A stretch of DNA of 64,000 bases from Janthinobacterium tructae (GTDB taxonomy: Bacteria > Pseudomonadota > Gammaproteobacteria > Burkholderiales > Burkholderiaceae_D): positions 2,604,001-2,668,000 of the forward strand of contig NZ_CP041185.1 in NCBI RefSeq assembly GCF_006517255.1, written 5' to 3'. Under the pieces are notes generated by a model, which was not told the origin of the DNA, did not search any database, and saw only the letters and a list, made by a program, of their open reading frames with translations. Each line of letters opens with the position of its first letter. Position 1 is the first letter of the stretch. This document shows positions 42,825 through 61,845 of this stretch, piece by piece. Position numbers and translations under genes: made by a program.

Positions 42825-45227
42825 TTATTGCTCCTTGGTGTGCGCGCTAGCTGCATGACTGCGGGCTTTCCAGCGGCGCAGCAACAGGGCATTGCTGATC
42901 ACGCTGACGGAACTGAAGGCCATCGCCGCGCCCGCCACCATGGGGTTGAGCAAGCCGAAGGCGGCCAGCGGAATGCCGATCATATTGTAGATAAATGCCC
43001 AGAACAGATTCTGCCGTATCTTGCTGTAAGTGCGGCGCGAGATATCGATGGCATCCGCCACCAGGGCCGGATCGCCACGCATCAGCGTGATGCCGGCAGC
43101 ATGCATGGCCACATCCGTGCCCGTCGACATGGCGATGCCCACGTCGGCGGCCGCCAACGCGGGTGCATCGTTGATACCGTCGCCCACCATGGCCACCCTG
43201 GCGCCCGCGCCTTTCAATGCGGTGATTTTAGCGGTTTTATCGGCCGGCAGCATTTTCGCCACCACCGTGTCTATGCCCAGCAGCTTGCCGACGGCGTCGG
43301 CGCTGCCCTGGTTGTCTCCCGTCAACATCACCGTGCGGATGCCCAGGCTGTGCAGATGGGCAATGGCCGCCTGCGCATTCGGCTTGACCTGGTCGCTGAA
43401 GGCGAACAGCCCCAGCAATGTTGATCCCGAGGCCAGCCAGGAAATCGTGTTGCCCGTGTTTTCCAGGGACAATGCCTGTGCCGCCAATGGCGCCATATCC
43501 ACGTTTAACTCCTGCATCAGGCGCGTGCTGCCCAGTTTCAGGTCCAGGCCGTCGACATTCGCCGCCAGGCCGCGGCCCGGCAAGGCCGACAGGGCCGTGG
43601 CTGGCAAGGGTTCGATATGGCGCGCACTGGCCGCATCGAGCACGGCGGTGGCGAGGCTGTGTTCGCTGCCGCGCTGGATGCTGGCCGCCAGTTGCAGCAG
43701 CCGTGCATCACCGATGCCATGCGCATGCACGGCCGCCAGCGCAGGTTTGCCGATGGTCAAGGTGCCCGTCTTGTCGAATACGACGGTATTGACGGCGTGC
43801 GCCACTTCCAGCGCTTCCGCATCCTTGATCAGGATGCCGTAACGGGCGGCCACGCCCGTGCCGGCCATGATGGCCGTCGGCGTGGCCAGGCCCAGCGCGC
43901 ACGGGCAGGCGATGACCAGCACGGCCACGGCATTAATGATGGCATTTTCCAGCTCGCCGGTCGCAAACCACCAGCCCAGCATAGTCAGCAGCGCCAGCAC
44001 CAGCACCACGGGAACAAAAATCGCGCTGACCTTGTCGACCAGATGCTGGATGGGTGCCTTGGCCGCCTGCGCGTCCTCCACCAGGCGGATGATGCGCGAG
44101 AGGGTCGTCTCGCCACCGACGGCTTGCGTGCGCACCAGCAACAAACCATCGGCATTGATGGCGCCGCCCGTGACCTTGTCGCCCGGATGCTTATCGACCG
44201 GCAAGCTTTCGCCCGTGATCAGGGACTCGTTGACCTGGCTGGCGCCTTCGACCACCACGCCATCGACAGCCACCCGTTCACCGGGGCGGATGACCACCAG
44301 GTCGCCCACTTTCACCTGTTCCACGGGCAAGTCGATCTCGACGCCGTCGCGGCGCACGCGGGCCGATTCAGGACGCAACACTTGCAGCGCGCGGATGGCC
44401 GAGGCGGTCTGACGCTTGGCGCGGCTTTCCAGCCATTTGCCCAGCAACACCAGCGTGATGACGACGGCTGACGCTTCGAAGTACAGGTGCGGCAAGATCT
44501 CGCCCGCCGTCAGCCATTGATAGACGGACAAGCCATATGCGGCGCTCGTGCCCAGCGCCACCAGCAAGTCCATATTGCCGCTGCCGGCGCGCGCCGCCTT
44601 CCAGCCCGCCTTGTAGAAACGCGCGCCAAAGTAAAACTGCACGGGCGTGGCCAGCACAAATTGCAGCCAGCCTGGCAGCATCAGATGGATGCCGGCCCAT
44701 TCCAGCAGCATGGGGAGCATCAGGGGGAAAGCCAGCAGGCCGGCAAATACCACCTTGATGCCGTCACGCGACGGCGCTGGCGCACTGGCTAGGCCCCCGG
44801 CTGGCACCGGCACGCTGGCCTGGTAGCCGGCAGCGGTGACTGCCGCCACCAGGGTCGAGGCTTCCACGCCGCTGACCGTCACGCGCGCGCTTTCCGTGGC
44901 CAGGTTGACGCTGGCGGCAAGCACGCCCGGCACCTTCAGCAAGGCTTTTTCCACCCTGCCCACGCAAGAGGCGCACGTCATGCCGGCCACCAACAGGTCG
45001 ATGTCCGTGCTGGCCAGCGCATAGCCGGCCTTGTCCACGGCCGCCTGCAAGGTGGCCAGCGCAACGTTCTGGCTGGACGCCACCCTGGCCGTATCGGTGG
45101 CCAGGTTGATGCTGGCGCTGGTCACACCCGGCACGGCCGCCAGCGCCTTTTCAACGCGGGCGGCGCACGAGGCGCAGGTCATGCCTTCGACCGTGAACGA
45201 TTGCAAATAAGGGGAAGCTGGCTGCAT
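42825..45227 (-). CDS. copA: Copper-exporting P1B-type ATPase CopA
   Basis: 800 residues. Two N-terminal HMA domains, each with GMTCASC (first at Cys18/Cys21), eight membrane helices with the [10 protein letters not shown] ion motif (about residue 440), phosphorylation motif DKTGTLT, and [10 protein letters not shown] hinge. It exports Cu(I) from the cytoplasm. The promoter upstream carries a CueR-type box, and cueR follows 2 bases later. Confidence 0.97.
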
Positions 45228-45299: not shown

Positions 45300-46091
45300 T
45301 TAGCGTACCTCGCAGTCGACGTTGTTCGACTTGCCCGGCGTGGTACTGCTGGCGCTCGGGCCCGTGCTGGCATTGAACAACGGCGGCAGCGTAAATGGAA
45401 TGCCCGGATTGGTCGGCAGCAGCATCGGCGGCTGCTTGAAACTTGGCGTGTAACCGAACTGGCCGGCGGCGATATCGAGCGTGCCGCCTGGATTGCTCAC
45501 CACGATTTGTCCGGTGGTCACCGACGTGTACAGCCCTGGCGCAAGGGTCGGCCCTGCCGGCGATCCCGTCCTGGGTAGCGACGAGCCTGGTGCCGCATAG
45601 CCACCGGCAGCGATATACTCGGCAGTGAAATACGTGCCGCGGATGCCGATGGTGGCGACCGGCGTCTTCAGGGAAAACTTTTCCTTGTTGCGCTTGCCCA
45701 GCAAGCCCGACAGCGAACGCAAGCCTCCCTTGACCAGGTTGAACGAGGCCCGGTCGTTCTCGGGCTGCTCGGCCTGATAAGCGAACTGCTCGACGACAAA
45801 GGTGGTGGACGGTTTGAGGGTGATCTCGCTGTTGTCGATGAATTTCACCAGGGCATAGGTGTTTTTCTCCGTTACCAGCGTATCGCCAGCCTCCACCTCG
45901 GACCTGAGCGACAATATCTTGACCTTGCCGTCTGCCTTTTTCGCCATCATCGGCCCACTCAGCTGCGTCACCGTGCCGGCCACCTGGGCGAACGCATGCA
46001 GGCTGATGCTCATCAGCACCAGCCAAAGCATGGCGCCGGCCAGCATCGGCCTAGTTGCAATAGGTCTTCTTGATACCATTTTGAGCATCAT
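45300..46091 (-). CDS. FecR-domain exported protein
   Basis: 263 residues. Signal peptide (LWLVLMSISLHAFAQ), then a FecR domain: GDTLVTEKNTYALVKFIDNSEITLKPST, followed by LKTPVATIGIRGTYF. The C-terminal ~90 residues are Pro/Gly/Ser-rich and end NNVDCEVR with the only cysteine of the mature protein. GAAGGA lies 8 bases before the ATG, which overlaps the TpsA stop by 41 bases, showing coupling to tpsA. No FecI sigma factor or FecA receptor is nearby, so it is not a classical ferric-citrate regulator; in this setting it probably serves the adhesin. Confidence 0.87.
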   Translation of the reverse strand: MMLKMVSRRPIATRPMLAGAMLWLVLMSISLHAFAQVAGTVTQLSGPMMAKKADGKVKILSLRSEVEAGDTLVTEKNTYALVKFIDNSEITLKPSTTFVVEQFAYQAEQPENDRASFNLVKGGLRSLSGLLGKRNKEKFSLKTPVATIGIRGTYFTAEYIAAGGYAAPGSSLPRTGSPAGPTLAPGLYTSVTTGQIVVSNPGGTLDIAAGQFGYTPSFKQPPMLLPTNPGIPFTLPPLFNASTGPSASSTTPGKSNNVDCEVR

Positions 46092-49000
46092 CTGTTGCTT
46101 CCTTCGTCGATTCTTTGGATGTGGTGCCCGCCAGCAGCGGCGTGACCACGTTGTTGGGCGTAGTGAACTGGTTGAGCGGGTTGTATTGCGCGCTGAGCGC
46201 CGGCAAGGTATTGACGGCGCTGATGATGATGCTTGGCGGCACCACGGGCGTCGTCACCGGCGCGGCCACCAGCACCGAGGCCGGCACGTTGACCCGGCCA
46301 TTCGGCGCCAGCAGCGACACGGGCGCGCCGCGGCTGTTGATGCGCACGGTTTCGGCGGCGGTCAGGTCGCCGTTTTTCGCCAGCACATTGATAGCGCCCG
46401 TGGCCTGCACATCGAGGGTGGCTGCGCCGGCAAAGGTGACGCCGCTACCGGCCGTGACCGCGATGGTGCGCGCCGCATTGATGCGCGCGCCATCGCCGAA
46501 GGCCACGTCCGTGCTGGCATCGACGGTGACGTCGTTGCCTTGGACGACGCCCTGCACATTGACGGGGCTGTGTGCGATCAGGCTCACGTTGCCGCCGGTA
46601 GTGCTGATGGCGTGGCTCTCGATGCCGCCCGTGCTTTCGATGCGCACGTCGCCGGAACCGGTCGCCAGGCTACCCAGCACCAGCACGTCAGGCGCGCTGG
46701 TGCTGGTCAGGGCAATGCCGCCGGCGCCGCTGTTGCCGGCGCTGAAGTTCTTGACACGGTTGCCGGCGTCGTTCAGCACGGTACCGGTTTGCGATTGCGT
46801 GGCCAGGCTGCCGGCAACCACGGCGCCGCTCTGGCTGATGGAGCCCGCGCCAGCGTTCAGGCTGATGGCATTGGCGGTCAATGCCGCGAAACGCAGGTCG
46901 CCGGCGGCCTGGGTCACGGCCAGGTTGCCGCCGATATGGATGGCGCCGGCGCTCTGGCTGAAGCTGTTGCTGACCGTCATATTGCCCAGGCCGCCCAGCA
47001 AGCCGCCGGTCTGCGCATAGTTGGCCACCGTCAGCGCATTATTGACCAGCAGGCTGCCGCCGGTGAGGTTCAGGCCGCCGCGCGAGCTCAAGCGATCAAG
47101 CACGGTGTCGCCGGCCGCCGCCGTGTACACCACGTTGCCGGTGCTGGCCGCGAAATCGGCCGCCAGCACATTGGCGCCGCTTGGCGCCACGCCGCCTTCC
47201 CAGTTTGCGGCGTCGCTCCACAAGCCACCGGCCGCGCCGATCCAGGTCGACAGGGCGCGCTGGGCAATGCTGGCCTGGGCCACGCCGCCGCTCGAGGTCA
47301 AAGCGTAATTGCCGGCATCCGCGCCCGACAGGCCAAAGCCGCTGACATTGACCGTCTTGCCGCTGCCATAGTTGCGGTCGGCAAACGTGCCGCTGCCGCC
47401 CGCCAGGCTGACGGCATCCTGGCCGATCACGCCCGCCACGGTGCCGCTGACATTGGCCACTTGCGTGCCGTCGTACACCTTGTCGCTGGCGCTGACGCTG
47501 GCCAGTGTCAATGCCGCGCGGGCAATAGTGGCCGTGGTCGCGCCAGTCGTGTTGGCCAGGCGGTAGTTACCAGCATCGTTACCGGACAGGCTGGCATTCT
47601 GTACCGTGATCGTCTTGCCGCTGCCTGCATTCTTGTCGGCAAACGCCGCGCTGGCCAATGCGCTCAGCACATCGCCGGCGATGCGGTCGTCGCTGATCGC
47701 CACCTGCGCGCCGGTCACGCCGTCATACACCTTGTCGACACCCGTATAGCCCAGGTTCAGCGTACGCTGCGCGATGCTGGCCATTGCCGTGCCACCGGTC
47801 GTGCCCAAGGTGTAATTGCTTGCGTCAAGGCCGGACAGGCTGGCGTTCTGTACCGTCACAACTTTGTTGCTGCCGGCATTCTTGTCGGCGAATGCGCCGC
47901 TGGCCGTTGCCGTCAGCACGTCGTTGGCGATACGATTATCGGTAATCGTCAATGACGCGGCGCTGTTGCCGTCATAGGTCTTGCCGGCGGCAGTGAAGCC
48001 CAGCGCCAGTTCGCGTTGCGTGATGGTGGCGCTAGTGGCGCCGGTGGTCGAGGTGAGCACATAGTTGGCGGCATCGGTACCGGACAGGCTGGCGTTTTGC
48101 ACCGTCACGACTTTGTTGCTGCCGGCATTCTTGTCGGCGAATGCGCCGCTGGCCGTTGCCGTCAGCACGTCGTTGGCGATACGATTATCGGTAATCGTCA
48201 ATGACGCGGCGCTGTTGCCGTCATAGGTCTTGCCTGCGGCAGTGAAGCCCAGCGCCAGTTCGCGTTGCGTGATGGTGGCGCTGGTGGCGCCGGTGGTCGA
48301 GGTGAGCACATAGTTGGCGGCATCGGCACCGGACAGGCTGGCGTTCTGCACCGTCACCGCCTTATTGGCACCGGCATTCTTGTCAGCAAATGCGCCGCTG
48401 GCCGTTGCCGTCAGCACGTCGTTGGCGATACGGTTGTCGGTGATGGCGAGCGTGGCGGCGGTATTGCCGTCATAGGTCTTGCCCGCTGCCGCAAAGCCAA
48501 GCGCCAGTTCGCGTTGCGTAATGGTGGCGCTGGTGGCGCCGGTGGTCGAGGTGAGCACATAGTTGGCGGCATCGGTGCCGGACAGGCTGGCGTTGTGCAC
48601 CGTCACGACTTTGTTGCCGCCGGCATTCTTGTTGGCGAATTCGCCGATGGCCGTTGCCATCAGCACGTCGTTGGCAATACGGTTGTCAGTGATGGCGAGC
48701 GTGGCGGCGGTGTTGCCGTCATAGGTCTTGCCCGCTGCCGCAAAGCCCAGCGCCAGTTCGCGTTGCGTGATGGTGGCGTTGGTGGCGCCGGTGGTCGAGG
48801 TGAGCACATAGTTGGCGGCATCGGCGCCGGACAGGCTGGCGTTTTGCACCGTCACGACTTTGTTGCTGCCGGCATTCTTGTCAGCGAATGCGCCGATGGC
48901 CGTTGCCGTCAGCACGTCGTTGGCAATACGGTTGTCGGTGATGGCAAGCGTGGCGGCGGTGTTGCCGTCATAGGTCTTGCCTGCGGCAGTAAAGCCCAGC

Positions 49001-52000
49001 GCCAGTTCGCGCTGGGTAATGGTGGCGCTGGTGGCGCCGGTGGTCGAGGCCAGCACATAGTTGTTGGCATCGGCGCCGGACAGGCTGGCGTTGCGCACCG
49101 TCACGACTTTGTTGCCGCCGGCATTCTTGTCGGCGAATGCGCCGCTGGCCGTTGCCGTCAGCACGTCGTTGGCGATACGATTATCGGTAATCGTCAATGA
49201 CGCGGCGGTGTTGCCGTCATAGGTCTTGCCCGCTGCCGCAAAGCCCAGCGCCAGTTCGCGCTGGGTGATGCTGGCGCTGGTGGCGCCGGTGGTCGAGGTG
49301 AGCACATAGTTGGCGGCATCGGCACCGGACAGGCTGGCGTTTTGCACCGTCACGACTTTGTTACTGCCGGCATTCTTGCCAGCGAATTCGCCGATGGCCG
49401 TTGCCGTCAGCACGTCGTTGGCGATACGATTATCGGCAATCGTCAATGACGCGGCGATGCCGCCGTCATAGGTCTTGCCTGCGGCAGTAAAGCCCAGCGC
49501 CAGTTCGCGTTGCGTGATGGTGGCGTTGGTGGCGCCGGTGGTCGAGGTGAGCACATAGTTGGCGGCATCGGCGCCGGACAGGCTGGCGTTTTGCACCGTC
49601 ACGACTTTGTTGCTGCCGGCATTCTTGTCAGCGAATGCGCCGCTGGCCGTTGCCGTCAGCACGTCGTTGGCGATACGGTTGTCGGTGATGGCAAGCGTGG
49701 CGGCGGTGTTGCCGTCATAGGTCTTGCCCGCTGCCGCAAAGCCCAGCGCCAGTTCGCGCTGGGTGATGGTGGCGCTGGTGGCGCCGGTGGTCGAGGCCAG
49801 CACATAGTTGGTGGCATCGGCGCCGGACAGGCTGGCGTTGCGCACGGTCACGACTTTGTTGCCGCCGGCATTCTTGTCAGCGAATTCGCCGATGGCCGTT
49901 GCCGTCAGCACGTCGTTGGCGATACGGTTGTCAGTGATGGCGAGCGTGGCGGCGGTGTTGCCGTCATAGGTCTTGCCTGCTGCCGCAAAGCCCAATGCCA
50001 ATTCGCGTTGCGTGATGGTGGCGTTGGTGGCGCCGGTGGTCGAGGTGAGCACATAGTTGGCGGCATCGGTGCCGGACAGGCTGGCGTTGCGCACCGTCAC
50101 GACTTTGTTGCCGCCGGCATTCTTGTCGGCGAATTCGCCGATGGCCGTTGCCGTCAGCACGTCGTTGGCGATACGATTATCGGCAATCGTCAATGACGCG
50201 GCGATGCCGCCGTCATAGGTCTTGCCTGCGGCAGTGAAGCCCAGCGCCAGTTCGCGCTGGGTGATGGTGGCGCTGGTGGCGCCGGTGGTCGAGGCCAGCA
50301 CGTAGTTGTTGGCATCGGCGCCGGACAGGCTGGCGTTGCGCACCGTCACGACTTTGTTGCCGCCGGCATTCTTGTCGGCGAATTCGCCGATGGCCGTTGC
50401 CGTCAGCACATCGTTGGCGATACGATTATCGGCAATCGTCAATGACGCGGCGATGCCGCCGTCATAGGTCTTGCCTGCGGCAGTGAAGCCCAGCGCCAGT
50501 TCGCGCTGCGTAATGGTGGCGCTGGTGGCGCCGGTGGTCGAGGCCAGCACGTAGTTGTTGGCATCGGCGCCGGACAGGCTGGCGTTGCGCACCGTCACGA
50601 CTTTGTTGCCGCCGGCATTCTTGTCGGCGAATTCGCCGATGGCCGTTGCCGTCAGCACGTCGTTGGCAATACGATTATCGGCAATCGTCAATGACACGGC
50701 GATGCCGCCGTCATAGGTCTTGCCTGCGGCAGTGAAGCCCAGCGCCAGTTCGCGTTGCGTGATGGTGGCGTTGGTGGCGCCGGTGGTCGAGGCCAGCACG
50801 TAGTTGTTGGCATCGGCGCCGGACAGGCTGGCGTTGCGCACCGTCACGACTTTGTTGCCGCCGGCATTCTTGTTGGCGAATTCGCCGATGGCCGTTGCCG
50901 TCAGCACATCGTTGGCGATACGATTATCGGCAATCGTCAATGACGCGGCGATGCCGCCGTCATAGGTCTTGCCTGCGGCAGTAAAGCCCAGCGCCAGTTC
51001 GCGCTGGGTGATGGTGGCGTTGGTGGCGCCGGTGGTCGAGGCCAGCACGTAGTTGTTGGCATCGGCGCCGGACAGGCTGGCGTTGCGCACCGTCACGACT
51101 TTGTTGCCGCCGGCATTCTTGTCGGCGAATTCGCCGATGGCCGTTGCCGTCAGCACATCGTTGGCGATACGATTATCGGCAATCGTCAATGACGCGGCGA
51201 TGCCGCCGTCATAGGTCTTGCCTGCGGCAGTAAAGCCCAGCGCCAGTTCGCGTTGCGTGATGGTGGCGCTGGTGGCGCCGGTGGTCGATGCCAGCACGTA
51301 GTTGTTGGCATCGGCGCCGGACAGGCTGGCGTTGCGCACGGTCACGACTTTGTTGCCGCCGGCATTCTTGTCAGCGAATTCGCCGATGGCCGTTGCCGTC
51401 AGCACGTCGTTGGCGATACGATTATCGGTAATCGTCACGACCGCTGCCGTGTCACGATCGTAGACTTTATTGGCGCCGGCAAAGGCCAGGCTCAAGGTAC
51501 GTTGCGTGATCTCGGCCGTGCCGATGGCGGTGGCAGCCAGGCTGTAGTTGCCCATCGCGTCGCCGGACAAGGTCAGTTCGCTGAGATTGACGGCCTTGAC
51601 GCTGCCGGCGTTCTTGTCGACGAACTGCGCGCTGCCGGTCACGCCCACGGTATCGCCGCTGACCGTGTTGCCCAGGCTGAAGGTCGCGTTGGCGAAGCCG
51701 AGCTGACCGTCATACACCTTGCTGCCGCCCACGCTGACCGTCAACGCGCGCGGCGTGATGGCCAGGGTGGTCGTGCCGCCCAGACTGATGTCGTACTTGG
51801 TCGACCACAGGCCCGTCACATCGTAGTTGCCCACATTGCGCGCCGACTGGAAGCCAAGGCTGCCGTTGGCCGCCGTGTCGCCATCGAGCAAGCCCAGATA
51901 GGCGAGCGTGCCGTTGAAGCTGGCGAACTGTCCATCGTAGACCTGGCTGGCAGGCTGGCCCGCCGCCGTCACTTGCAGCGGCTTCAGGAAAGCCTTCAGC

Positions 52001-55000
52001 ATCGGCGTCGTGTAGCCGTCATAGATGCGCCAGATGGGCGAGGCGCCGAAGGCAAAACCGTCGAAGCTCGACAGGCGCGACATCTGCGCCGCCGTGCGGC
52101 CGATACTGATACCGCCATCGTCCGCCTGGCCGGAGCTGTCGATATTCCAGTAGGTGCTCGCCAAGGCGCCGCTATTGCTGCCGACCAAGCCACCCACCGC
52201 ACTGAAGCCCCCGCCAGCGATGGCGCCGCTGGCATAGGCATTGCTGATGCTGCCCGTGTTCTCGCCAGCCAGGCCGCCGATATGCTCGCGCGTGATCCCG
52301 GCATCCGCATTGCCTGCCGCCCCGACCGCGCCGGTGGCGTAGACATCAGCCAGCGTACCCTGGTTGCTGCCCACCAGGCCGCCCAGATTGCGTGCGCCCC
52401 TGACGCCGCCGCTGGCGTACGACACAGCAATGCGGCCCTGGTTAATGCCCGCCAGGCCGCCGACGCCATCCTGGCCGGCCACGCTCATGCTGCTTTGTAC
52501 CTGCTCTATCGTGCCGCCCGCAGCGACCACGCCGGCCACGGCGCCCACATTGTTGTTGCCGCTGACATTGCCACCGAGCAGGTTCAACTGGCGCACCGTG
52601 CCTGTCGTGCCGTTACCCAGCTTGCCGAAAAGGCCGGTGTTCAGGTTGCCGTTCGGCGCGCTCTCGCCGTGGATCTGCAAGCCGCTGATGGCATAGCCGG
52701 CGCCGTCCAGCACCCCGGAAAAACCACCCGAGTCGCTATGCGCGATGGGACGAAAACCGGCGCCGTCATTCCAGGCGCCCGTGCCGCTGGCGTCGATATT
52801 GCCGGCCAGGCGATAACTGTTACTCAGGTCCAGGCTGGCGATGCCTTGCAAGCCATACACGTCGGCGATGACATACGGTGCGCCCGCGCTGCCGTCGCCG
52901 TTCGTAGCGCGCAAGAAACTGGCGCCGGGAGCGATGATGAAATTGCCGGCTGAAAAGGCTGGCAGGCCGGTCGTATTTTGCGTCCAGGTGCCGCTGGCCA
53001 ACCTGAAGGTCGCCCCCACATTGACGGCGCCCGCCGCACTGACTGTCGATCCCGCAGTGAGGCTCAGGCTGCCGGCCACAGCTAGCGCATGATCGATCGC
53101 GATGGCGCCGCCCGTCACCAGCTGCAAGGTAGCCGGCCCCGTGGCACCGCTCGCCACCGTCACCGCCTGGTCGACGCCGATGGCGCCTGTCATGGCGGCA
53201 TGGCCGAGCGTTAGGTTCGCTGCAGAAATGGCATTCAGGTCGGCGCTGGACAGGCTGAGTTTGCCACTCGCCTTGCTGCCGAGATTGATTTCACGGTTGG
53301 CCGACTCCGCGCGCAAGGTCACCGCAGCGCCGCCCGCCTCACCGCCGTAGGCCACGCCGCCCTGCAAATTCATGTTATCGGCCTGCAACAGCAATGTCTG
53401 CCCCACCGCCGTGCCGACGATCTGTCCGCCGCTGCCATTGAGGACGATGCGTCCGTCGAATTTGTTGGCGCGCAGTTCCGCATTGCCGCCGCCGACATTC
53501 AAGCTGCCCGCCACACCGAAGGCGATATCGGCGCCCGTCAGCGCAACGTTGCCGCCCTGGCTGGAGAGGGCCGCATCGACATGCAAGACGGCAGAGCTGC
53601 CTTGTGCCGTGGCGCCGCCATTGTCGTTGGCCGACAGGATCAGCGCGCCGCCATTGGTGGTAATGGCCTGGTTGACGTTGATGCTGTTGCCAGCCTGCGC
53701 CGTGAGTCCCACGCTGGCCTGGGTGATGGCGACGGCTGCGTTGAAGTTGATGTCGTGCTGCGCCTGCAGCACCACATTGCTGGTGGCCGTCGAAATCAGG
53801 CCGGCGCCGATAGTGGTGGTGCCCGTCGTCGGCGCATCCGCAAAATCATTGACGCCGCTCAGCGCGCCGCCATTGCCGGCGACCACGTCGATGTCATACG
53901 GATCGAGCAGCCAGTCGCCCGTCTTGCCGCGCGCCGCGCGGGCGCGCGTATCGACCCTGGCGCCATCGACGGCCAGGTAGTGCCCCGACGTTTCCACCAG
54001 GCCGCCGTTGCCCGTGGCAGCGCCGCCGCGCGCCGAAATGCTGCCGAACACGCGCGCCGTCTCGTTGCCCCAGACGATGACCTTGCCGCCGTCGCCGCTT
54101 TGAATCGCGTCGGCGGCGATGGTGGCATCCTTGCCGACGGCCACCTGGCGCGCATTGGCAATCGCCGGGTTTTTGCCCTGGTAGTCACCGCCCAGCAGCA
54201 CCGTACCGCCGCCCGTGGCGCCGCTGGCGTCCACTCTGGCGTTGCCTTGCATGCCGACCTGGTCGCCCAGCACGGTTATCTCGCCGCCCTTGCCCACGGC
54301 ACTAGTGGCGCTGGTGACGCTGCCGTTTTCCAGCAGCGCCTTGCCGGTGGCTTTCAACACGATCTTGCCGTTCTCTCCCACCACCGCGCTATTGGCGTTG
54401 AGCACGCCACGCTGGTTCAGCAGCGCGCCGGCCATGCCGATGCGCCCGCCCTGCGCCACGATCTGGCCCACATTGATGGCCTGGTCCGCGGGGGCCGACA
54501 GCACCACGCGCAAGTCGGGGTTGGCGGCGTCGGCCAGTTGCACGCTGTGGCCGGCGGCCAGCAGCACGTCGCCGTTCGGCGCGGTGATGATGCCGCTGTT
54601 TTCCACGTTCGGCGCGATCAGCAGAATCTGCCCGCCGCTGCCGGCATGGATGGTTCCCTGGTTGATGACGGCGCCGGCCTGCTCGCCGGCATTGAAATGC
54701 ATCTTGCCGGCCAGGAAATCCTGGTTCGACAGCGCCAGGCTGGACGCCACCAGGCCCGCCACGTCAACCCGCGCATCACGGCCGAACAGCACGCCGTTCG
54801 GATTGATCAGGAACACCTTGCCGTTCGATTGCAGCGAGCCGAGGATCTTGCTGGGGTCTTGTCCGGTGATGCGGTTGAGTACGCTACTACCGGCGTTTTG
54901 CTGAAGAAAGCGCGTGATTTCGCCCGGATTGACGGAAAAGCTCTGCCAGTTGATGATGGTATTGGGCGTGTTCGTGATCGTAAACAGATTGCCCTGCTGG

Positions 55001-55158
55001 TTGAACGTGGCCTGGCCATGCACCACTTGCGGCAAGACCGGATTGGCGTGAGCGGCGCTGAAACAGGCGGCAATCAGGAGCGCCAGCGCGGTGCGGCGCA
55101 GCGGCGGCTCGACAGGGCCGCCAGCAGGCAAGCTGCGCAATGGTTTTTGTTTGGTCAT
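46051..55158 (-). CDS. Giant TpsA-family filamentous haemagglutinin-like exoprotein
   Basis: 3035 residues. Signal peptide (ALALLIAACFSAAHAN) is followed by a TPS secretion domain (about 39-290) with VINWQSFSV-type, NRITG and LINPNGVLFG motifs. Residues ~290-800 are beta-helix-like repeats, ~820-1010 hold GLUG motifs (GGLVGSNQGTLADVYATG), and ~1060-2600 are MBG/YDG-type domains. Within these, residues 1303-2464 are 14 near-identical 83-residue units. The C-terminus ends KKTYCN with a lone cysteine. It should cross the outer membrane through the TpsB encoded 27 bases upstream and act as an adhesin or biofilm matrix protein. AAGGA precedes the ATG. Confidence 0.93.
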   Translation of the reverse strand: MTKQKPLRSLPAGGPVEPPLRRTALALLIAACFSAAHANPVLPQVVHGQATFNQQGNLFTITNTPNTIINWQSFSVNPGEITRFLQQNAGSSVLNRITGQDPSKILGSLQSNGKVFLINPNGVLFGRDARVDVAGLVASSLALSNQDFLAGKMHFNAGEQAGAVINQGTIHAGSGGQILLIAPNVENSGIITAPNGDVLLAAGHSVQLADAANPDLRVVLSAPADQAINVGQIVAQGGRIGMAGALLNQRGVLNANSAVVGENGKIVLKATGKALLENGSVTSATSAVGKGGEITVLGDQVGMQGNARVDASGATGGGTVLLGGDYQGKNPAIANARQVAVGKDATIAADAIQSGDGGKVIVWGNETARVFGSISARGGAATGNGGLVETSGHYLAVDGARVDTRARAARGKTGDWLLDPYDIDVVAGNGGALSGVNDFADAPTTGTTTIGAGLISTATSNVVLQAQHDINFNAAVAITQASVGLTAQAGNSINVNQAITTNGGALILSANDNGGATAQGSSAVLHVDAALSSQGGNVALTGADIAFGVAGSLNVGGGNAELRANKFDGRIVLNGSGGQIVGTAVGQTLLLQADNMNLQGGVAYGGEAGGAAVTLRAESANREINLGSKASGKLSLSSADLNAISAANLTLGHAAMTGAIGVDQAVTVASGATGPATLQLVTGGAIAIDHALAVAGSLSLTAGSTVSAAGAVNVGATFRLASGTWTQNTTGLPAFSAGNFIIAPGASFLRATNGDGSAGAPYVIADVYGLQGIASLDLSNSYRLAGNIDASGTGAWNDGAGFRPIAHSDSGGFSGVLDGAGYAISGLQIHGESAPNGNLNTGLFGKLGNGTTGTVRQLNLLGGNVSGNNNVGAVAGVVAAGGTIEQVQSSMSVAGQDGVGGLAGINQGRIAVSYASGGVRGARNLGGLVGSNQGTLADVYATGAVGAAGNADAGITREHIGGLAGENTGSISNAYASGAIAGGGFSAVGGLVGSNSGALASTYWNIDSSGQADDGGISIGRTAAQMSRLSSFDGFAFGASPIWRIYDGYTTPMLKAFLKPLQVTAAGQPASQVYDGQFASFNGTLAYLGLLDGDTAANGSLGFQSARNVGNYDVTGLWSTKYDISLGGTTTLAITPRALTVSVGGSKVYDGQLGFANATFSLGNTVSGDTVGVTGSAQFVDKNAGSVKAVNLSELTLSGDAMGNYSLAATAIGTAEITQRTLSLAFAGANKVYDRDTAAVVTITDNRIANDVLTATAIGEFADKNAGGNKVVTVRNASLSGADANNYVLASTTGATSATITQRELALGFTAAGKTYDGGIAASLTIADNRIANDVLTATAIGEFADKNAGGNKVVTVRNASLSGADANNYVLASTTGATNATITQRELALGFTAAGKTYDGGIAASLTIADNRIANDVLTATAIGEFANKNAGGNKVVTVRNASLSGADANNYVLASTTGATNATITQRELALGFTAAGKTYDGGIAVSLTIADNRIANDVLTATAIGEFADKNAGGNKVVTVRNASLSGADANNYVLASTTGATSATITQRELALGFTAAGKTYDGGIAASLTIADNRIANDVLTATAIGEFADKNAGGNKVVTVRNASLSGADANNYVLASTTGATSATITQRELALGFTAAGKTYDGGIAASLTIADNRIANDVLTATAIGEFADKNAGGNKVVTVRNASLSGTDAANYVLTSTTGATNATITQRELALGFAAAGKTYDGNTAATLAITDNRIANDVLTATAIGEFADKNAGGNKVVTVRNASLSGADATNYVLASTTGATSATITQRELALGFAAAGKTYDGNTAATLAITDNRIANDVLTATASGAFADKNAGSNKVVTVQNASLSGADAANYVLTSTTGATNATITQRELALGFTAAGKTYDGGIAASLTIADNRIANDVLTATAIGEFAGKNAGSNKVVTVQNASLSGADAANYVLTSTTGATSASITQRELALGFAAAGKTYDGNTAASLTITDNRIANDVLTATASGAFADKNAGGNKVVTVRNASLSGADANNYVLASTTGATSATITQRELALGFTAAGKTYDGNTAATLAITDNRIANDVLTATAIGAFADKNAGSNKVVTVQNASLSGADAANYVLTSTTGATNATITQRELALGFAAAGKTYDGNTAATLAITDNRIANDVLMATAIGEFANKNAGGNKVVTVHNASLSGTDAANYVLTSTTGATSATITQRELALGFAAAGKTYDGNTAATLAITDNRIANDVLTATASGAFADKNAGANKAVTVQNASLSGADAANYVLTSTTGATSATITQRELALGFTAAGKTYDGNSAASLTITDNRIANDVLTATASGAFADKNAGSNKVVTVQNASLSGTDAANYVLTSTTGATSATITQRELALGFTAAGKTYDGNSAASLTITDNRIANDVLTATASGAFADKNAGSNKVVTVQNASLSGLDASNYTLGTTGGTAMASIAQRTLNLGYTGVDKVYDGVTGAQVAISDDRIAGDVLSALASAAFADKNAGSGKTITVQNASLSGNDAGNYRLANTTGATTATIARAALTLASVSASDKVYDGTQVANVSGTVAGVIGQDAVSLAGGSGTFADRNYGSGKTVNVSGFGLSGADAGNYALTSSGGVAQASIAQRALSTWIGAAGGLWSDAANWEGGVAPSGANVLAADFAASTGNVVYTAAAGDTVLDRLSSRGGLNLTGGSLLVNNALTVANYAQTGGLLGGLGNMTVSNSFSQSAGAIHIGGNLAVTQAAGDLRFAALTANAISLNAGAGSISQSGAVVAGSLATQSQTGTVLNDAGNRVKNFSAGNSGAGGIALTSTSAPDVLVLGSLATGSGDVRIESTGGIESHAISTTGGNVSLIAHSPVNVQGVVQGNDVTVDASTDVAFGDGARINAARTIAVTAGSGVTFAGAATLDVQATGAINVLAKNGDLTAAETVRINSRGAPVSLLAPNGRVNVPASVLVAAPVTTPVVPPSIIISAVNTLPALSAQYNPLNQFTTPNNVVTPLLAGTTSKESTKEATDDAQNGIKKTYCN
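47518..47766 (-). repeat. Diverged YDG-type unit after the tandem array
   Basis: An 83-residue unit (RTLNLGYTGVDKVYDG start) with the same length and framework as the array units but clearly diverged, for example ISDDRIAGDVLSALAS. It marks the C-terminal boundary of the homogenised array. Confidence 0.8.
47767..51252 (-). repeat. 14 tandem 249-bp repeats within tpsA
   Basis: Fourteen head-to-tail units of exactly 249 bases (83 codons), each starting RELALGF(T/A)AAGKTYDG and ending ATITQ or a close variant. Each contains NRIANDVL(T/M)AT and NASLSG. No unit differs in length. Units 1-5 (high coordinates) mostly share GGIAASLTIADN; units 6-14 mostly have N(T/S)AA(T/S)L(A/T)ITDN; unit 8 reverts to the first type. 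The pattern indicates recombination between units. Confidence 0.95.
51253..51501 (-). repeat. Diverged YDG-type unit before the tandem array
   Basis: An 83-residue unit starting RTLSLAFAGANKVYDRDTA. Its second half is already nearly identical to the array units (IGEFADKNAGGNKVV), while the first half is diverged, which suggests partial gene conversion at the array edge. Confidence 0.8.
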
Positions 55159-55185
55159 GGTGTTTTATCCTTGGGGCTCAGTACA

Positions 55186-56772
55186 TCAGTACGACAGCGC
55201 AACTCTGAAATGCAGGCGGTTGGCGTCGCGGCGCCCCGTCTGGCCGGGGTTGACCACATGCGCATAGTCCAGTTGCAGGTTGGCGTAGCGGTTCAGCAGG
55301 ATGCGCAGGCCCAGGCCCGCCGAGCCGATCGCCATGCTGTCGATTTCACCGGGCAAGCCGTGATTGCGGCGCACCCAGGCCGTGTCATAAAACGCCAGCG
55401 CGCGGCACTGGTAGCCGCCATCGCCGCACCAGTTCGGCGTGTACAGTTCCAGATTCAGGTTGGCGCCGGAATCGTTCGCCACTTCGCGTTCCAGGAAGCC
55501 GCGCACGGTGGCCGCGCCGCCGACGCCGAACTGCTCGCCCGGCACCAGCGCATCGGGCGTGTACTGGCCGTTGAACAACGCGCGCCATTGCCAGTCGTTA
55601 TCCAGCACCTGGGCATGACTGGCGCTCAGGCGCAAGGTGCTGTAGGCGGCCTTGGCGCCGACACGTGCGAGCGTAAAATCCTGCTGGCTGCCATTCTTGC
55701 CGCCGGGAATATTGCGCGCCAGGGTCAGGCCTACGCTGGCCTCGCCACGTGGCAAGCTCCAGGCGCCGATATAGCCGATGCTGACGGGGTGCACCGTCAC
55801 GTTGGTACCCAGCTCCATGCCGAAGAACTGCAGGCTGTTGCGGTAGGCCTTGAAGTCCAGGCCATACACCAGCTTGGGTTCATAGTTGTCGCGCTTGCCG
55901 AAGTTCTGGTTGTAGCGCGCGCCGGCGGTGGTGCCGCGGCCGCTGACAGCCAGGTCGAAGATACCGGCCGCGACGCTGCCCGAATCGACGTTCGAATAAC
56001 TGGCAAAAAAGTCCAGCGAGTCGCCCAGCGCATACAGCGGCACGTGGTAGCCGAGGCCGTACACGCCGACCTGGTTGGCGTGCTCTAGCGAGGTGGTGTA
56101 TTGCAGGCTGGCCACATGATCGCGGCCCCACAGGTTGGCATGCTGCAGCACCACGCCGGCGTGGGTCTTGCCGGAGTCCTTGCTGCCGGTATTGTCGAGG
56201 TTGAGCGTGGCTTTCCAGGCACGTTCGTCCGCCACCGCGATGCTGGCGTCGACCGTGCCGTCGGCCTCGCCGCCAGCCAGCTTGACTTCGAGCTTGCGGG
56301 CCGGATTTTCATTGGCCAGCTTCAGACTTTGCCCCAAGGCCAGCATGTTCGGCGTCTGCCCTTCGACCAGGGCCGGCAAGGCGCGCCGTACATTGGCGTC
56401 ATCGACATACTGGTTGCCGGTGATGGCCACCTTGCCAACCTGCGTCTGCACCACTTCCAGGCGCACGGCGCCATGGGCCAGCTCCTGCTCGGGCAAGGCC
56501 ACCTGCACCAGCGTGTAGCCGCGCGCGCGGTAGGCGTTTTCCAGCGCCTCGACGGCTTGCTGGATGGCGCCAAAGTCGCGCTGCGGGCCAGCGAACGGCG
56601 CCACCAGCGATTGCACCAGTTGCGGCCCCAGCAGGGTGTCGCCGCTGACCTCGTAGCTGGCGATATCAAACAGCGGGACGGCACTGTCGGCGGTGGGGGT
56701 TTGGGCGTTTGCGCATGCCGCGCAGAACAACAGCGCGGAACCTGCAAGCAGGCGCACCAGACGATAATTCAT
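55186..56772 (-). CDS. TpsB outer-membrane transporter, FhaC/ShlB family
   Basis: 528 residues from the ATG at 56772, which opens a normal signal peptide (MNYRLVRLLAGSALLFCAACANAQ); an ATG at 56796 adds eight residues. Two POTRA domains follow (FDIASYEVSGDTLL and QTQVGKVAITGNQYVDD), then a 16-strand barrel with the conserved VRGF of the L6 loop (ATVRGFLERE) and terminal aromatic residue (VALSY). It exports the TpsA encoded downstream. An AT-rich stretch at 56815-56880 may be its promoter. Confidence 0.93.
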   Translation of the reverse strand: MNYRLVRLLAGSALLFCAACANAQTPTADSAVPLFDIASYEVSGDTLLGPQLVQSLVAPFAGPQRDFGAIQQAVEALENAYRARGYTLVQVALPEQELAHGAVRLEVVQTQVGKVAITGNQYVDDANVRRALPALVEGQTPNMLALGQSLKLANENPARKLEVKLAGGEADGTVDASIAVADERAWKATLNLDNTGSKDSGKTHAGVVLQHANLWGRDHVASLQYTTSLEHANQVGVYGLGYHVPLYALGDSLDFFASYSNVDSGSVAAGIFDLAVSGRGTTAGARYNQNFGKRDNYEPKLVYGLDFKAYRNSLQFFGMELGTNVTVHPVSIGYIGAWSLPRGEASVGLTLARNIPGGKNGSQQDFTLARVGAKAAYSTLRLSASHAQVLDNDWQWRALFNGQYTPDALVPGEQFGVGGAATVRGFLEREVANDSGANLNLELYTPNWCGDGGYQCRALAFYDTAWVRRNHGLPGEIDSMAIGSAGLGLRILLNRYANLQLDYAHVVNPGQTGRRDANRLHFRVALSY

Positions 56773-56888
56773 GAGAGAGAGTTCTTGTGGTTGCATGGCC
56801 AGCCAAGCGCGGCTGGGCCATCAATTAATTAAAAACAAAGTTTAGACGGATTTTGATTTCCAGTCAGAAATATCTCTGCTGGCGATGC

Positions 56889-59138
56889 TTACTTGGTCTG
56901 GAAGTTGGTCACACCATCCCAGTCTTCGCCAGGCGGCGTTTCGCGATACTGGCGCAAGCGCGCGGCGTACAGCCGGCGCAGCCCATCGTCTGGCAGTTCC
57001 GATAAGATTGCCTCTGCACCATCCCAGTCGAGCGCACGCAACAGTTCCAGCACGCGCGACCAACGCGCCAGCAGCGCCAGTTCGCCGGCATCGGCTTCGG
57101 CCAGCAGGCAGCGCGGCTCGAAAATGGCCACCGGTTCAGTCTTGCCCTTGACCCGCACGCGGTCCAGTTCGCGGTAGGCGAATTGCGGCGCCTGCGCACG
57201 CGTGAATTCGCTTACGGCGATGCCCACGCCATACACCTTGGTAATGCCTTCCAGGCGCGCGCCCAGGTTGACGGCGTCGCCCATCACGGTATACGCCCGG
57301 CGGATGCGCGAGCCCATGTCGCCCACATGCATCAGGCCACTATTGAGGCCGATGCCGATCTGCAGCGGCGGCCAGCCGCGCGCCTCGAATTGCTGGTTCA
57401 AACGACCGGCGCTGCGCTGCATCAGCAGGGCGCTGGCCACGGCGCGGCCCGCATGGTCGGGAAACGCCACCGGCGCCCCCCAGAATGCCATCACGGCGTC
57501 GCCGATATATTTGTCCAGCGTGCCGCCGTGGCTGTCGCGAATATCTTCCGACATGGCCGTCAGGTACAGGTTGATATATTCGCGCAACTCCTGCGGCGTC
57601 ATCTGTTCCGAAATGGCCGTAAAGCCGCGCACGTCGGCAAACAGCACCGTCAGTTCGCGGCTTTCGCCATCCATGCTGTAGCGGTCGGGATTGTCGGCCA
57701 TCTGTGCCACCAGTTCCGGCGCCACGTACTGGCCGAAGCGCGCCACCAGCGCCCTGCCCTTGCGCACTTCGAAAAAATAGCCCCAGGCCAGATTGGCGAC
57801 GAACAGCGCCGCGATCAACAACAGCAACACGGCAACATCGAGCGCCGCGTCGAAGTAACGATACAAGCACCAGTTCAGGCCCAGCGCGCCGGCCAGCGCC
57901 GCGCCTGCCAGCAACACGGCCGCCGCCGGCGTGGCCAGCGCCAGCGCGCCGCCGAGCAGCAAGCCCACCAGCACCACCTGGCCGAACTCGATCGCCAGCG
58001 CATAGTCGGGTCGCGACTTGAAATGGCCGTCAAGGATGGATTTGATCAGGTTGGCGTGCACTTCCACACCGGGAAACTCGGCGTTGACGGGCGTGGCGCG
58101 AATATCGTTCAGGCCGGCGGCTGTGGTGCCCACCAGCACGATGGCGCCGTGCAGCACGTCCGTCGGCACCGCCCCCGTCAGCACGTCGGCCGCCGACACA
58201 TAGCGGAAGGCGCCGCCGTCCGGGCCGCCCTTGCCGCGAAACTCGATGGTGGTGGTCAAGGCTTCGCCGACCGGGATATCGAGGCGTCCGCGCGGCGTAA
58301 ATACGGCGATGCGGTCCAGGCCGCCGTGCTCGCGCTCGGCCTCGGACAACTTGTCGGCGGTCTGGCCGAACACGGGCGCGATCGCGCGCGCCTTCAGGTA
58401 CACGCTGGCCGTGGCCAGCGACAGCGACGGGTAATACGCATCGCCGATGCGCTGCAGCAGGGTCGATGAGCGCAGCACGCCGTCGCTGTCGGTCAGGGCC
58501 GTGAAGATGCCGGCCCCTTGCGCCGCCTGTTGCAGCTGCGCCAGGTTGGCTGCATAGCCGGGCGACGTAAACGCCGTCACCGTGCGCCCGTTCAGATCAA
58601 GCACGCTGAACGCCGGCTTGGGCAGCATGCCTTTCTTTTGCCGGTCCGACACGCTATAGCCCAGCACCACCGGCTGGCCGCGCATCGCCTCGGCAAACAG
58701 GGCGTCGTAATCCATCTGCGGTTTCAGGCGTTCCAGCTGCTCGCTCAAGCCCGGCACGCCGGCCAGTTCGCCCTTGGCCAGGTCGGCCAGCACGCCATAG
58801 CCGGAACTGCTGTCGGGTTCGGGAAACGAGATATCGAAGCCGACCGCGGCCACGCCATAGTGGCCCGTCAATTGCGTCACCAGCCGCGCCTGCACGTCGC
58901 GGCCCCAGGGATAGCGGCCGATCTGGTTCAGGCTTTTTTCATCGATATCGACGATCACGATGCGCTTGTCGAGCTGCGGCGCTTCGGCACGCATGCGCAT
59001 GTCGCCCAGCATGGCGTCCAGCCGGCCCAGGGTATCGACGCCGAAGAGACCGATACTGGCGCAGGCGGCCAGCATCGTCAGCAGCGCACCCAGCAGCAGC
59101 CGCGCGCCATGCTTTTTCATTACCGCAAGCCAGCGCAT
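56889..59138 (-). CDS. CHASE2-domain class III adenylate cyclase
   Basis: 749 residues. One N-terminal helix, a periplasmic CHASE2 sensor domain (about 40-350, with IVIVDIDEKSLNQIGRYPW and VGFDISFPEPD), three membrane helices (about 375-465) and a cyclase domain (about 485-690). Metal Asp residues lie in LFADVRGF (about 500) and YIGDAVMAFWG; the preceding Lys (LDKYIGD) and GDAVNLGARLE fit ATP rather than GTP specificity. It probably makes cAMP. Its ATG overlaps the stop of the HD-GYP gene by one base. Confidence 0.92.
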   Translation of the reverse strand: MRWLAVMKKHGARLLLGALLTMLAACASIGLFGVDTLGRLDAMLGDMRMRAEAPQLDKRIVIVDIDEKSLNQIGRYPWGRDVQARLVTQLTGHYGVAAVGFDISFPEPDSSSGYGVLADLAKGELAGVPGLSEQLERLKPQMDYDALFAEAMRGQPVVLGYSVSDRQKKGMLPKPAFSVLDLNGRTVTAFTSPGYAANLAQLQQAAQGAGIFTALTDSDGVLRSSTLLQRIGDAYYPSLSLATASVYLKARAIAPVFGQTADKLSEAEREHGGLDRIAVFTPRGRLDIPVGEALTTTIEFRGKGGPDGGAFRYVSAADVLTGAVPTDVLHGAIVLVGTTAAGLNDIRATPVNAEFPGVEVHANLIKSILDGHFKSRPDYALAIEFGQVVLVGLLLGGALALATPAAAVLLAGAALAGALGLNWCLYRYFDAALDVAVLLLLIAALFVANLAWGYFFEVRKGRALVARFGQYVAPELVAQMADNPDRYSMDGESRELTVLFADVRGFTAISEQMTPQELREYINLYLTAMSEDIRDSHGGTLDKYIGDAVMAFWGAPVAFPDHAGRAVASALLMQRSAGRLNQQFEARGWPPLQIGIGLNSGLMHVGDMGSRIRRAYTVMGDAVNLGARLEGITKVYGVGIAVSEFTRAQAPQFAYRELDRVRVKGKTEPVAIFEPRCLLAEADAGELALLARWSRVLELLRALDWDGAEAILSELPDDGLRRLYAARLRQYRETPPGEDWDGVTNFQTK

Positions 59139-60781
59139 CAGGGCACGTAACCGGGAATGGCCGCCTCGTCGATGGCGTCGATCTGTTCGGGATGCATGTG
59201 CTGCCGGGCAAACGCCAGGTACACCTTGCTGCGAATAAAGACATCGAACAGGTCGGGATCGATATGGCCGTTCAGGCTGAAGTGGCCCAGGATGCGCAGC
59301 GACTCGGACAGTGACTTGCCCTTTTTATAGGGACGGTCGCGCGCCGTCAGCGCCTCGAAAATATCGGCGATCGCCATCAGCCGCGCCGGCACCGACATCT
59401 GCTCGCGCGTCAGCCCGCGCGGATAACCGTTGCCGTCCATGCGTTCATGGTGGCCGCCCGCGTATTCCGGCACCTTTTGCAAATGCTTGGGCCACGGCAA
59501 TGCTTCGAGCATGCGGATCGACACCGCAATATGGTTGTTGATGATCTTGCGCTCGGCATCGGTCAGGGTGCCGAAACGGATCGTCAGATTCTCCAGCTCA
59601 TTGGCGTCAAGGAAATCGCGCTCGACACCGTCGGGGCCAGTCCAGCGCCGCGCCGCAATCGTGCGTACCCGTTCCTGGTCGGCCGGCGTCATGCCTTCGC
59701 CGCCGATATTGGCATGGCGTAAAAAGTCGCGCTCTTCGCGCAGCACCATTTGCTGCTGGTGCAATGCTTGCGCGATCTCCTGCTGGCGTTCGGGAGCCGC
59801 CAGTTGTGCTTTTAATGCGGTAATTTCCACGTCGCGCAGCAGTACTTCGAAGCGCGTGTCGACCAGGTGGATGCGGTCATGGATGGTTTCCAGCTTGGTG
59901 GCCTTGTCGACCACGTGCACCGGGGTGGTGATCTTGCCGCAATCGTGCAAGAGGCCAGCCAGCCACAGCTGCTTGCGTTCGTTCTCGCTCAGCTTGAAAT
60001 CGGCCATCGGTCCCGTATCGACCGCATGCACGGCGTCGGCCAGCATCATGGTCAGTTGCGGCACGAACTGGCAATGGCGGCCCGTGTACGGCGACTTTTC
60101 ATCGATGCCGATATTGATCAGGTTGACCAACGACTCCAGCAACTGTTCCAGCTGGCGCAGCAGCAACTGATTGGTCAGCGCCACCGCCGCCTGCGCCGCC
60201 AACGCCTCGATAAAGCGCTGGTCGGTGGCGGAAAACGCCTGCACCGCCCCGGTCGCGCGATCCTGGGCATTGATCAACTGCAGCACGCCGATCAGCTCAC
60301 CTTCATGATCGCTCATCGGTACCGTCAGGAAGGACGTGGAACGGTAGCCATAATGGCCGTCAAAGGCGCGCATGCCCGAGAAATTGAAATCGCCCGACTG
60401 GTACACATCGTCGATATTGACCGACACGCGGCGATGCGCGGCATACGCCGCCACCGATGCCAGGTTGGGCGCGCCGTCTTCCAGCCACAGCGCCACGCCC
60501 GGCACGCCAACCGCCACGCCGGCGCTGGCGCCCTGGCGCAGCCCCAGGCTGTCGTTGATACTGATATGAAATTCCAGGCTGTGCCCATCGGCGCTGGGAC
60601 GGTACAAGGTGCCGCCGTCGGCGCCCGTCATGTCCTTGGCGACCAGCACGATGCGTTCGAGCAGGGGCGTGATATCGCCACCGTGCAGCATGCCTGCCGC
60701 CGCGCCACGGCCCAGTTCGACGCTCAGTTCAGTCAGCTGGTCGAGCCGCTGGGCGATTTGCTCGGGGTGCAGCTGGAGCAT
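59138..60781 (-). CDS. GAF plus HD-GYP domain protein, probable c-di-GMP phosphodiesterase
   Basis: 547 residues. A GAF domain (about 25-190) precedes an HD-GYP domain with LLHDCGKITTPVHV (about 275) and HHERMDGNGYPRG (about 442). The catalytic HD and GYP signatures are intact, so c-di-GMP hydrolysis is expected. An insert between them (about 300-400) is longer than usual. The ATG at 60781 is chosen because a further ATG at 60844 lies inside a TATAAT box, which would put that codon upstream of the transcript start. Coupled to the cyclase gene. Confidence 0.9.
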   Translation of the reverse strand: MLQLHPEQIAQRLDQLTELSVELGRGAAAGMLHGGDITPLLERIVLVAKDMTGADGGTLYRPSADGHSLEFHISINDSLGLRQGASAGVAVGVPGVALWLEDGAPNLASVAAYAAHRRVSVNIDDVYQSGDFNFSGMRAFDGHYGYRSTSFLTVPMSDHEGELIGVLQLINAQDRATGAVQAFSATDQRFIEALAAQAAVALTNQLLLRQLEQLLESLVNLINIGIDEKSPYTGRHCQFVPQLTMMLADAVHAVDTGPMADFKLSENERKQLWLAGLLHDCGKITTPVHVVDKATKLETIHDRIHLVDTRFEVLLRDVEITALKAQLAAPERQQEIAQALHQQQMVLREERDFLRHANIGGEGMTPADQERVRTIAARRWTGPDGVERDFLDANELENLTIRFGTLTDAERKIINNHIAVSIRMLEALPWPKHLQKVPEYAGGHHERMDGNGYPRGLTREQMSVPARLMAIADIFEALTARDRPYKKGKSLSESLRILGHFSLNGHIDPDLFDVFIRSKVYLAFARQHMHPEQIDAIDEAAIPGYVP

Positions 60782-60842
60782 GATGGAGGACTGGGGAAGT
60801 GGCGACAACCGCAAGTGTACCGTTGCCAGCTGCCGGCTGTAC

Positions 60843-60848
60843 ATTATA
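60843..60848 (-). promoter_or_regulatory. Consensus -10 box for the HD-GYP gene
   Basis: A perfect TATAAT on the reverse strand in an AT-rich divergent gap, with no clear -35. Transcription would begin about 50 bases before the chosen start at 60781. Confidence 0.55.
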
Positions 60849-60960: not shown

Positions 60961-61845
60961 ATGAAATTCACCTTCAGGGGGGTGCGCGGTTCTATCCCCT
61001 CGCCCGGCCCGCACACGGTGCGCTACGGCGGCAACACGACCTGCATCGAAGTACGCACGGCCAGCGACGCCCTGCTGGTACTCGATGGCGGCAGCGGCAT
61101 CTTTGCCCTGGCCGGCGCACTGCCGCCAGGACCCGCCACGGCCCACATCCTGATCACCCACAGCCACTGGGACCATATCCACGGCCTGCCCATGTTCGCC
61201 CCGCTGTTCATCCGCGGCAGCCGCGTGCGCCTGTATGGCGCGGCGGATGCGGCCGGCAATGGCATCGAACACGTGATGGCCACCCAGCTGCAGAACAATT
61301 ATTTTCCCGTCAGCGAAGCGGCCATGGCGGCCGAGATCGACTACCACACCCTGGCCGTCGGCGAGCGCGCGGACGTGGCCGACGCAGTGGTGACGAATGC
61401 CAGAATGAACCACCCGGTGATCAACCTCGGCTACCGCATCGAGTCCGGCGGCGCCTCGCTGTTTTTCAGCGGCGACCATGAACCGTTCGACAATCCGCAT
61501 GCCAGCGGCTCGCCCGCCTATGCGGCTTGCCAGGCCATGATCGCGCAGCGCCAGGCCGCCATCGACCAGACCATTGCCGGCGTCGACGCGCTGATCATGG
61601 ACTGCTCGTACACGCGTGACGAATACGAAACCAAGCGCGGCTGGGGCCACGGCACCTTCGACGGCGCGTTTGAACTGGCCCTGCGCTGCGGCGCCAAACG
61701 GCTGTATTGCACCCACCATGAACCGGGCCGCAGCGACGATCAATTGGAAGCGGCTTTTGCCGACGTAATGGCGCGCTTTGCCGGGCGGCTGGGGGCGTTG
61801 CAGGTGTTCCTGGCGGCCGAGGGCATGACCGTAGAGCTGGGCTAA
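60961..61845 (+). CDS. MBL-fold metallo-hydrolase
   Basis: 294 residues of the metallo-beta-lactamase superfamily. MKFTFRGVRGSIPSPG, RYGGNTTCIEV, the metal motif HSHWDHIHG (about 67-75), SGDHEP and the late His in CTHHEPGRSDD. The opening is shared with MBL proteins related to RNase Z and phosphodiesterases, so a cyclic-nucleotide or phosphodiester substrate is possible. It is divergent from the HD-GYP/cyclase pair, which makes a nucleotide-signalling role tempting but unproven. Its stop lies in the left arm of an inverted-repeat element. Confidence 0.88.
   Translation: MKFTFRGVRGSIPSPGPHTVRYGGNTTCIEVRTASDALLVLDGGSGIFALAGALPPGPATAHILITHSHWDHIHGLPMFAPLFIRGSRVRLYGAADAAGNGIEHVMATQLQNNYFPVSEAAMAAEIDYHTLAVGERADVADAVVTNARMNHPVINLGYRIESGGASLFFSGDHEPFDNPHASGSPAYAACQAMIAQRQAAIDQTIAGVDALIMDCSYTRDEYETKRGWGHGTFDGAFELALRCGAKRLYCTHHEPGRSDDQLEAAFADVMARFAGRLGALQVFLAAEGMTVELG

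Follow-up and report, generated by a model that had tools for sequence, protein, structure and literature searches.

What does a FecR-domain protein do at the end of a gene series that encodes a giant secreted protein? We asked this for a stretch of 64,000 nucleotides from Janthinobacterium tructae (genome a single contig of 6.31 Mb; NZ_CP041185.1, positions 2,604,001 to 2,668,000), which as a whole we call the window. On its minus strand lie, one after another, genes for an HD-GYP protein, a CHASE2 cyclase, the transporter TpsB and the exoprotein TpsA of a two-partner secretion (TPS) system, and the FecR-domain protein (FecR). An initial annotation had read the five genes as one module, in which the two signalling enzymes and FecR, as an envelope regulator, control a surface adhesin. 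The answer that we favour, with some reservation, is a different one: FecR is probably a retention plug for TpsA, to which it would be bonded by a disulfide between cysteines at the ends of the two proteins.

The argument begins with these cysteines. TpsA (46051-55158, minus strand; 3035 amino acids, with a TPS domain and 18 YDG stretches by Pfam) contains only two, at residue 32, within the signal peptide, and at residue 3034, the penultimate one. FecR (45300-46091, minus strand; 263 amino acids, PF04773 at residues 70-158) has a signal peptide, as judged by eye, and a flexible tail, and its sole cysteine is residue 260. The two genes overlap by 41 bases (46051-46091, minus strand), where TpsA ends with KKTYCN and the stop codon and FecR starts in a different frame. 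In all 20 loci of the genus (L001-L020, window included) a cysteine is found at position -2 of TpsA and at position -4 of FecR. C260 is invariant in alignments of 20 and of 36 FecR sequences, and the tail that precedes it is variable. The idea that the TpsA cysteine is a mere by-product of FecR coding in the overlap was rejected, as seven out of seven TpsA whose gene is separated from fecR by a gap keep it. Four TpsA without a downstream FecR (by a rough estimate of the start) also carry the cysteine.

To compare loci more widely we used two sets. Set A consists of 80 loci fetched around relatives of the cyclase, and set B of 80 loci (L131-L150 and L222-L281) with FecR matches picked by score from genomes of the same family, order or class; set B provided 79 complete FecR open reading frames (ORFs), five cut ORFs having been excluded. 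A FecR was called linked if a TpsB or a TPS-domain ORF was present on the same strand within the stretch. In set B, 18 of the 19 linked FecR have a cysteine among their last six residues, compared with 9 of the 60 unlinked ones (p = 2.8e-10); if the last ten residues are considered, all 19 linked ones have it, the one outside the shorter range being that of L139. Set A gives 31/31 linked and 2/9 unlinked FecR with a terminal cysteine. TpsA behaves likewise: among the last four residues a cysteine is present in all 47 complete TpsA from FecR-linked loci, against none of 33 control TpsA (3/33 in the last ten). The controls were nine other TpsA from this genome, four of which have an upstream PF04773 gene of another type that escapes the FecR profile, together with 24 taken from other genomes. 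The latter came from 40 chosen TPS places, one per family where possible and avoiding known FecR-linked ones; 28 of these were complete, four of the 28 with a CHASE2 cyclase nearby. A tenth further TpsA of the genome (L154), missed by our profile, has no C-terminal cysteine.

If each chain gives one cysteine to a bond with the other, odd counts matter. The number of cysteines in mature TpsA is odd in 43/47 linked proteins and in 3/33 controls, with the mature start set by aligning each N-terminus to the TpsA of the window; in FecR it is odd in 48/50 linked and 14/69 unlinked proteins. Furthermore, 101 FecR domains (complete ones from set B and chosen ones from set A, short ones dropped) were placed on a tree after removal of their last 12 residues, so that the tail could not steer it. 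Linkage changes about 10 times on this tree, where shuffled data need 27 changes on average; for the cysteine there are 11 changes. Unlinked FecR that are nested among linked ones (L241, L262, L092 and L223-L225, the last three being orphans whose stretch lacks a TPS gene) have no terminal cysteine; therefore linkage and cysteine have been lost or gained jointly more than once.

In Massilia loci (L029, L033, L034, L037, L051 and others) TpsA has regular cysteine-rich repeats, with a cysteine every 9-10 residues or so and up to 100 of them besides the terminal one. Another type of TPS locus (L302, L304, L308 and L316) has a CHASE2 cyclase, to which L302 adds CHAT and DUF928 proteins according to Pfam; its TpsA have a cysteine at -2, -9, -2 and -3, respectively, and an even total, as expected if their hook lies within the chain.

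The second line of evidence is the predicted fold of FecR. In its structure model the domain matches an anchoring domain, 5ix9, which we take to be that of a Marinomonas adhesin, so that FecR would have a LapA-type anchoring fold. A sequence search for solved relatives was discarded, its sole match being a procarboxypeptidase at chance level. Pfam (E 0.01) reports the FecR domain alone, with no match to the sigma-regulator domain, and among the genes examined beside fecR there is no extracytoplasmic function (ECF) sigma factor or TonB receptor: the neighbours are TpsA and a heavy-metal (copper-type) P-type ATPase (42825-45227, minus strand), which starts 72 bases downstream of fecR and is kept 3' of it in 20/20 genus loci. 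A LapG-family protease (PF06035) was searched for in this one genome and gave no match. A protein with a signal peptide, an anchoring-domain-like fold and a terminal cysteine that tracks the TPS gene gives no support to the envelope regulator of the initial annotation. Neither is a FecR in a TPS locus unusual, as had been thought, since 5 of the 11 TPS places in the genome have a PF04773 place nearby. Four of these five are of the other FecR type, upstream of the exoprotein. In L159-L162 of the same genome we see four exoproteins of more than 4,100 amino acids with an upstream PF04773 gene, of a FecR type unlike that of the window.

How could the parts work together? TpsB (55186-56796, minus strand; POTRA_2 and ShlB by Pfam) is encoded 27 bases from tpsA, and the pair belongs to two-partner (type Vb) secretion by scores above all cut-offs (PF05860 105.8, PF03865 108.8 and PF08479 57.8 bits). 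With FecR, they would form a three-part surface adhesin. TpsB would export TpsA with the N-terminus leading, while the poorly conserved C-terminal tail with its single cysteine would stay in the periplasm. There, the exported FecR would fold to a small beta domain resembling the plug of RTX adhesins, the terminal cysteines of both proteins would join as an intermolecular disulfide, and the folded domain, acting as a plug in trans, would keep TpsA from sliding through TpsB. The CHASE2 cyclase may then sense whether periplasmic FecR is plugged or unplugged and set the level of a cyclic nucleotide, with HD-GYP acting alongside on a second messenger; we propose this sensing tentatively, on the grounds that genes for FecR-domain and CHASE2 proteins are frequently found as neighbours. 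It is doubtful, though worth stating, that the whole is a surface sensor, that is, a cysteine-locked two-chain adhesin whose installing, pulling or unlocking (for example by periplasmic thiol chemistry) would alter the cyclic nucleotide and, via HD-GYP, a second messenger.

We counted the gene neighbourhood in the 50 Oxalobacteraceae loci of set A (L021-L067, L071, L081 and L093), some of which end early, 40/50 holding about 10 kb downstream. In 37 of them an HD-GYP gene precedes the cyclase by at most 100 base pairs (bp), in 44 a TpsB or TPS start follows within 500 bp, and in 31 FecR is found downstream. The neighbourhood is thus kept beyond this strain, as the initial annotation supposed, and given these counts, with the exact five-gene order in 20/50, the arrangement exceeds chance. 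The order also varies: HD-GYP is downstream of FecR in the Herbaspirillum loci L057, L058 and L061 and was not found next to the cyclase in L034, L036 and L045, and in some Duganella loci a TpsA precedes TpsB. In eight more distant loci (L068, L070, L073-L077 and L079) the cyclase and HD-GYP are on the same strand, with no TPS or FecR match in the stretch. From this separate occurrence and the variable order, the locus seems to have arisen by the joining of two units, one of cyclase and HD-GYP and one of tpsB-tpsA-fecR.

Are the two units then adjacent with no functional link? We consider this rather unlikely, even though the cyclase-HD-GYP pair exists without TPS genes and for most TPS-FecR loci of set B the fetched stretch contains no cyclase, so that sensing is not required for anchoring. 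A CHASE2 cyclase recurs close to TPS-FecR genes in L085, L250, L254 and L273, and other TPS genes have one in the four loci of the even-cysteine type. A FecR-domain gene and a CHASE2 cyclase are separated by 11 bp in L082 and in L088. In addition, cyclic-nucleotide-binding genes are found in or beside TPS-FecR loci (L132:4603-5277, L135:6884-7588 and L250:3655-4680); the one in L135 sits between tpsB and fecR and encodes a Crp-type regulator. The available text of published work reports FecR-CHASE2 clusters in Campylobacterota (PMC9239204), a Burkholderia biofilm operon that pairs a FecR-domain protein with CHASE2 (PMC5192318), and the Sinorhizobium outer-membrane protein NsrA genetically upstream of the CHASE2 cyclases CyaK and CyaD (PMC7529298, PMC13001267). 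By analogy with these, and with the co-occurrence and the cyclic-nucleotide-binding neighbours in mind, periplasmic sensing of FecR by the cyclase is plausible.

Several points weigh against FecR as a plug and against its sensing. A terminal cysteine is present in the nine unlinked FecR of set B mentioned above. Two of them (L131 and L274) lie behind a giant ORF that itself ends with a cysteine and is cut by the edge of the stretch or contig before any TPS domain, and those of L275, L277 and L280 adjoin CHASE2 cyclases, but for L229, L232, L249 and L279 we have no explanation. The rule for the mature start of TpsA was changed; the two earlier rules gave 27/47 and 34/47 odd counts, because signal-peptide cysteines were counted. 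The four linked TpsA with an even count are of the Herbaspirillum type (L057, L058, L060 and L061). No set of loci was a random sample: selection went by score or took one per family. The structure model has a mean predicted local distance difference test (pLDDT) score of 67.5, and NF033682, the LapA-type retention module, scores 30.8 bits against FecR, below its cut-off of 50. As to sensing, a same-strand cyclase occurs in only 1/19 TPS-FecR loci of set B (L250), those of L254 and L273 being on the opposite strand, and the regions before tpsB and HD-GYP show no conspicuous CRP-type site. Finally, dimers of FecR with FecR or of TpsA with TpsA would give identical cysteines.

This last point leads to an explanation that we regard as unlikely: the terminal cysteines may serve homodimers or a folding step, and FecR may be a periplasmic chaperone, cap or sensor of TpsA export that forms no lasting covalent link. 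Single cysteines are able to self-pair, the tails that bear them are flexible and variable, and no TPS gene is present in the stretch around the cysteine-ending FecR of L275, L277 and L280. Yet the two cysteines co-occur in distant relatives and are both missing where the link is missing, and the predicted anchoring-domain fold would fit retention better than chaperoning.

Are the five genes one transcription unit or two? The 92 bases between the cyclase and tpsB (56797-56888, minus strand), a gap not given in the initial annotation, hold a block, CTGACT-17-TAAACT, that looks like a promoter; it is kept in the three genomes compared (window, L067 and L021; TAAAAT in L067), and the flanking bases differ more. 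A promoter scan listed nothing in this gap, the block having 8/12 matches with a threshold of 9. No terminator, which would have spoken against the initial annotation, was listed on the minus strand of the gap either. CRP-type sites were rejected as support for control of tps transcription by cyclic AMP, as the best matches to TGTGA-N6-TCACA before tpsB and HD-GYP mostly do not exceed those of shuffled sequence. The single block of that annotation is doubtful, given the promoter-like block and the variable position or absence of HD-GYP. That HD-GYP and the cyclase would control the making of the adhesin as parts of one co-transcribed module, with FecR as a regulator in the envelope, is improbable: the kept order and the HD-GYP-cyclase pairs of the eight distant loci would fit it, but the promoter-like block, the varying order with HD-GYP missing at some loci, a FecR without sigma-regulator part and the lack of a CRP-type site before tpsB or HD-GYP all speak against it.

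The enzymes themselves, as well as the coordinates, the 1-base, 27-base and 41-base junctions and the domains of all five genes, came out as first annotated, by ORF listing, Pfam and catalytic motifs that are retained in relatives. The CHASE2 protein (56889-59138, minus strand; 749 amino acids, CHASE2 and Guanylate_cyc by Pfam) is a predicted class III nucleotidyl cyclase, with PF05226 and PF00211 above cut-off; two catalytic motif patterns are present in 50/50 relatives and a third, in the form we used, in just 16/50. Elsewhere in the genome there is just one further CHASE2 place, a weak one. The HD-GYP gene (59138-60844, minus strand; GAF and HD/HD_5 by Pfam) shares one base with it and encodes a predicted phosphodiesterase of cyclic di-GMP, with HDxGK in 45/45 relatives and HHExxDGxGYP in 44/45. 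Its nearest solved chain is 4mcw, and 5z7c, a relative specific for 3'3'-cGAMP (cyclic GMP-AMP), matches too. The in-frame ATG at 60781, the start first annotated, is plausible, since the alignments of most relatives cover 0.95-0.97 of the longer ORF. A divergent metallo-beta-lactamase-fold hydrolase (60961-61845, plus strand) adjoins HD-GYP and is kept there in most Oxalobacteraceae loci. It is possibly a cyclic-nucleotide phosphodiesterase, given a weak full-length match to NF041851 (42 bits, cut-off 400); a search found no match to a solved structure.

If FecR is indeed a plug, there would be a second means of holding a TPS adhesin on the cell, namely a separate protein attached by a disulfide, and release could be under thiol chemistry rather than a LapG-type protease. 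One branch of FecR-domain proteins would gain a function, the LapA-type anchoring fold would be tied to type Vb secretion, and there would be a hint at what CHASE2, as a sensor domain, responds to; the available text of PMC5192318 states that the factors recognised by CHASE2 are not known.

Among known systems, the closest are HMW1, HxuA and CdrA, in which, according to the available text of PMC5422565 and PMC7616799, TpsA is held in the TpsB pore via a C-terminal disulfide or cysteine hook. The likeness is that a disulfide-dependent C-terminal structure would retain TpsA at the TpsB pore here as well; the difference is that their disulfide is within TpsA, whereas the mature TpsA of the window has one cysteine, not the two of such a hook, and the second is on FecR. 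A literature search of partial coverage found no description of a TPS-FecR cysteine pair, and we rate this pair, as an apparent variant of TPS hook anchoring, more surprising than the gene order. The LapA-type module is described in the available text of PMC13090378 as the adhesin's own N-terminus, with type I secretion and release by LapG, whereas here the anchoring-type domain is the product of a separate gene, the adhesin is a TPS protein, and the genome gave no match to the LapG family. With the FecIRA sigma regulators FecR shares the PF04773 domain, but not the sigma-regulator match, the ECF sigma factor or the TonB receptor among the neighbours examined. The Campylobacterota clusters (PMC9239204) and the Burkholderia operon (PMC5192318) likewise combine a FecR-domain protein with a CHASE2 cyclase or histidine kinase; the available text of these accounts mentions no TPS exoprotein or terminal cysteine pair. 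NsrA, as far as its available accounts go, is similar as an outer-membrane protein that acts upstream of CHASE2 cyclases, but it is described as a beta-barrel that receives a plant signal and not as a plugged TPS adhesin.
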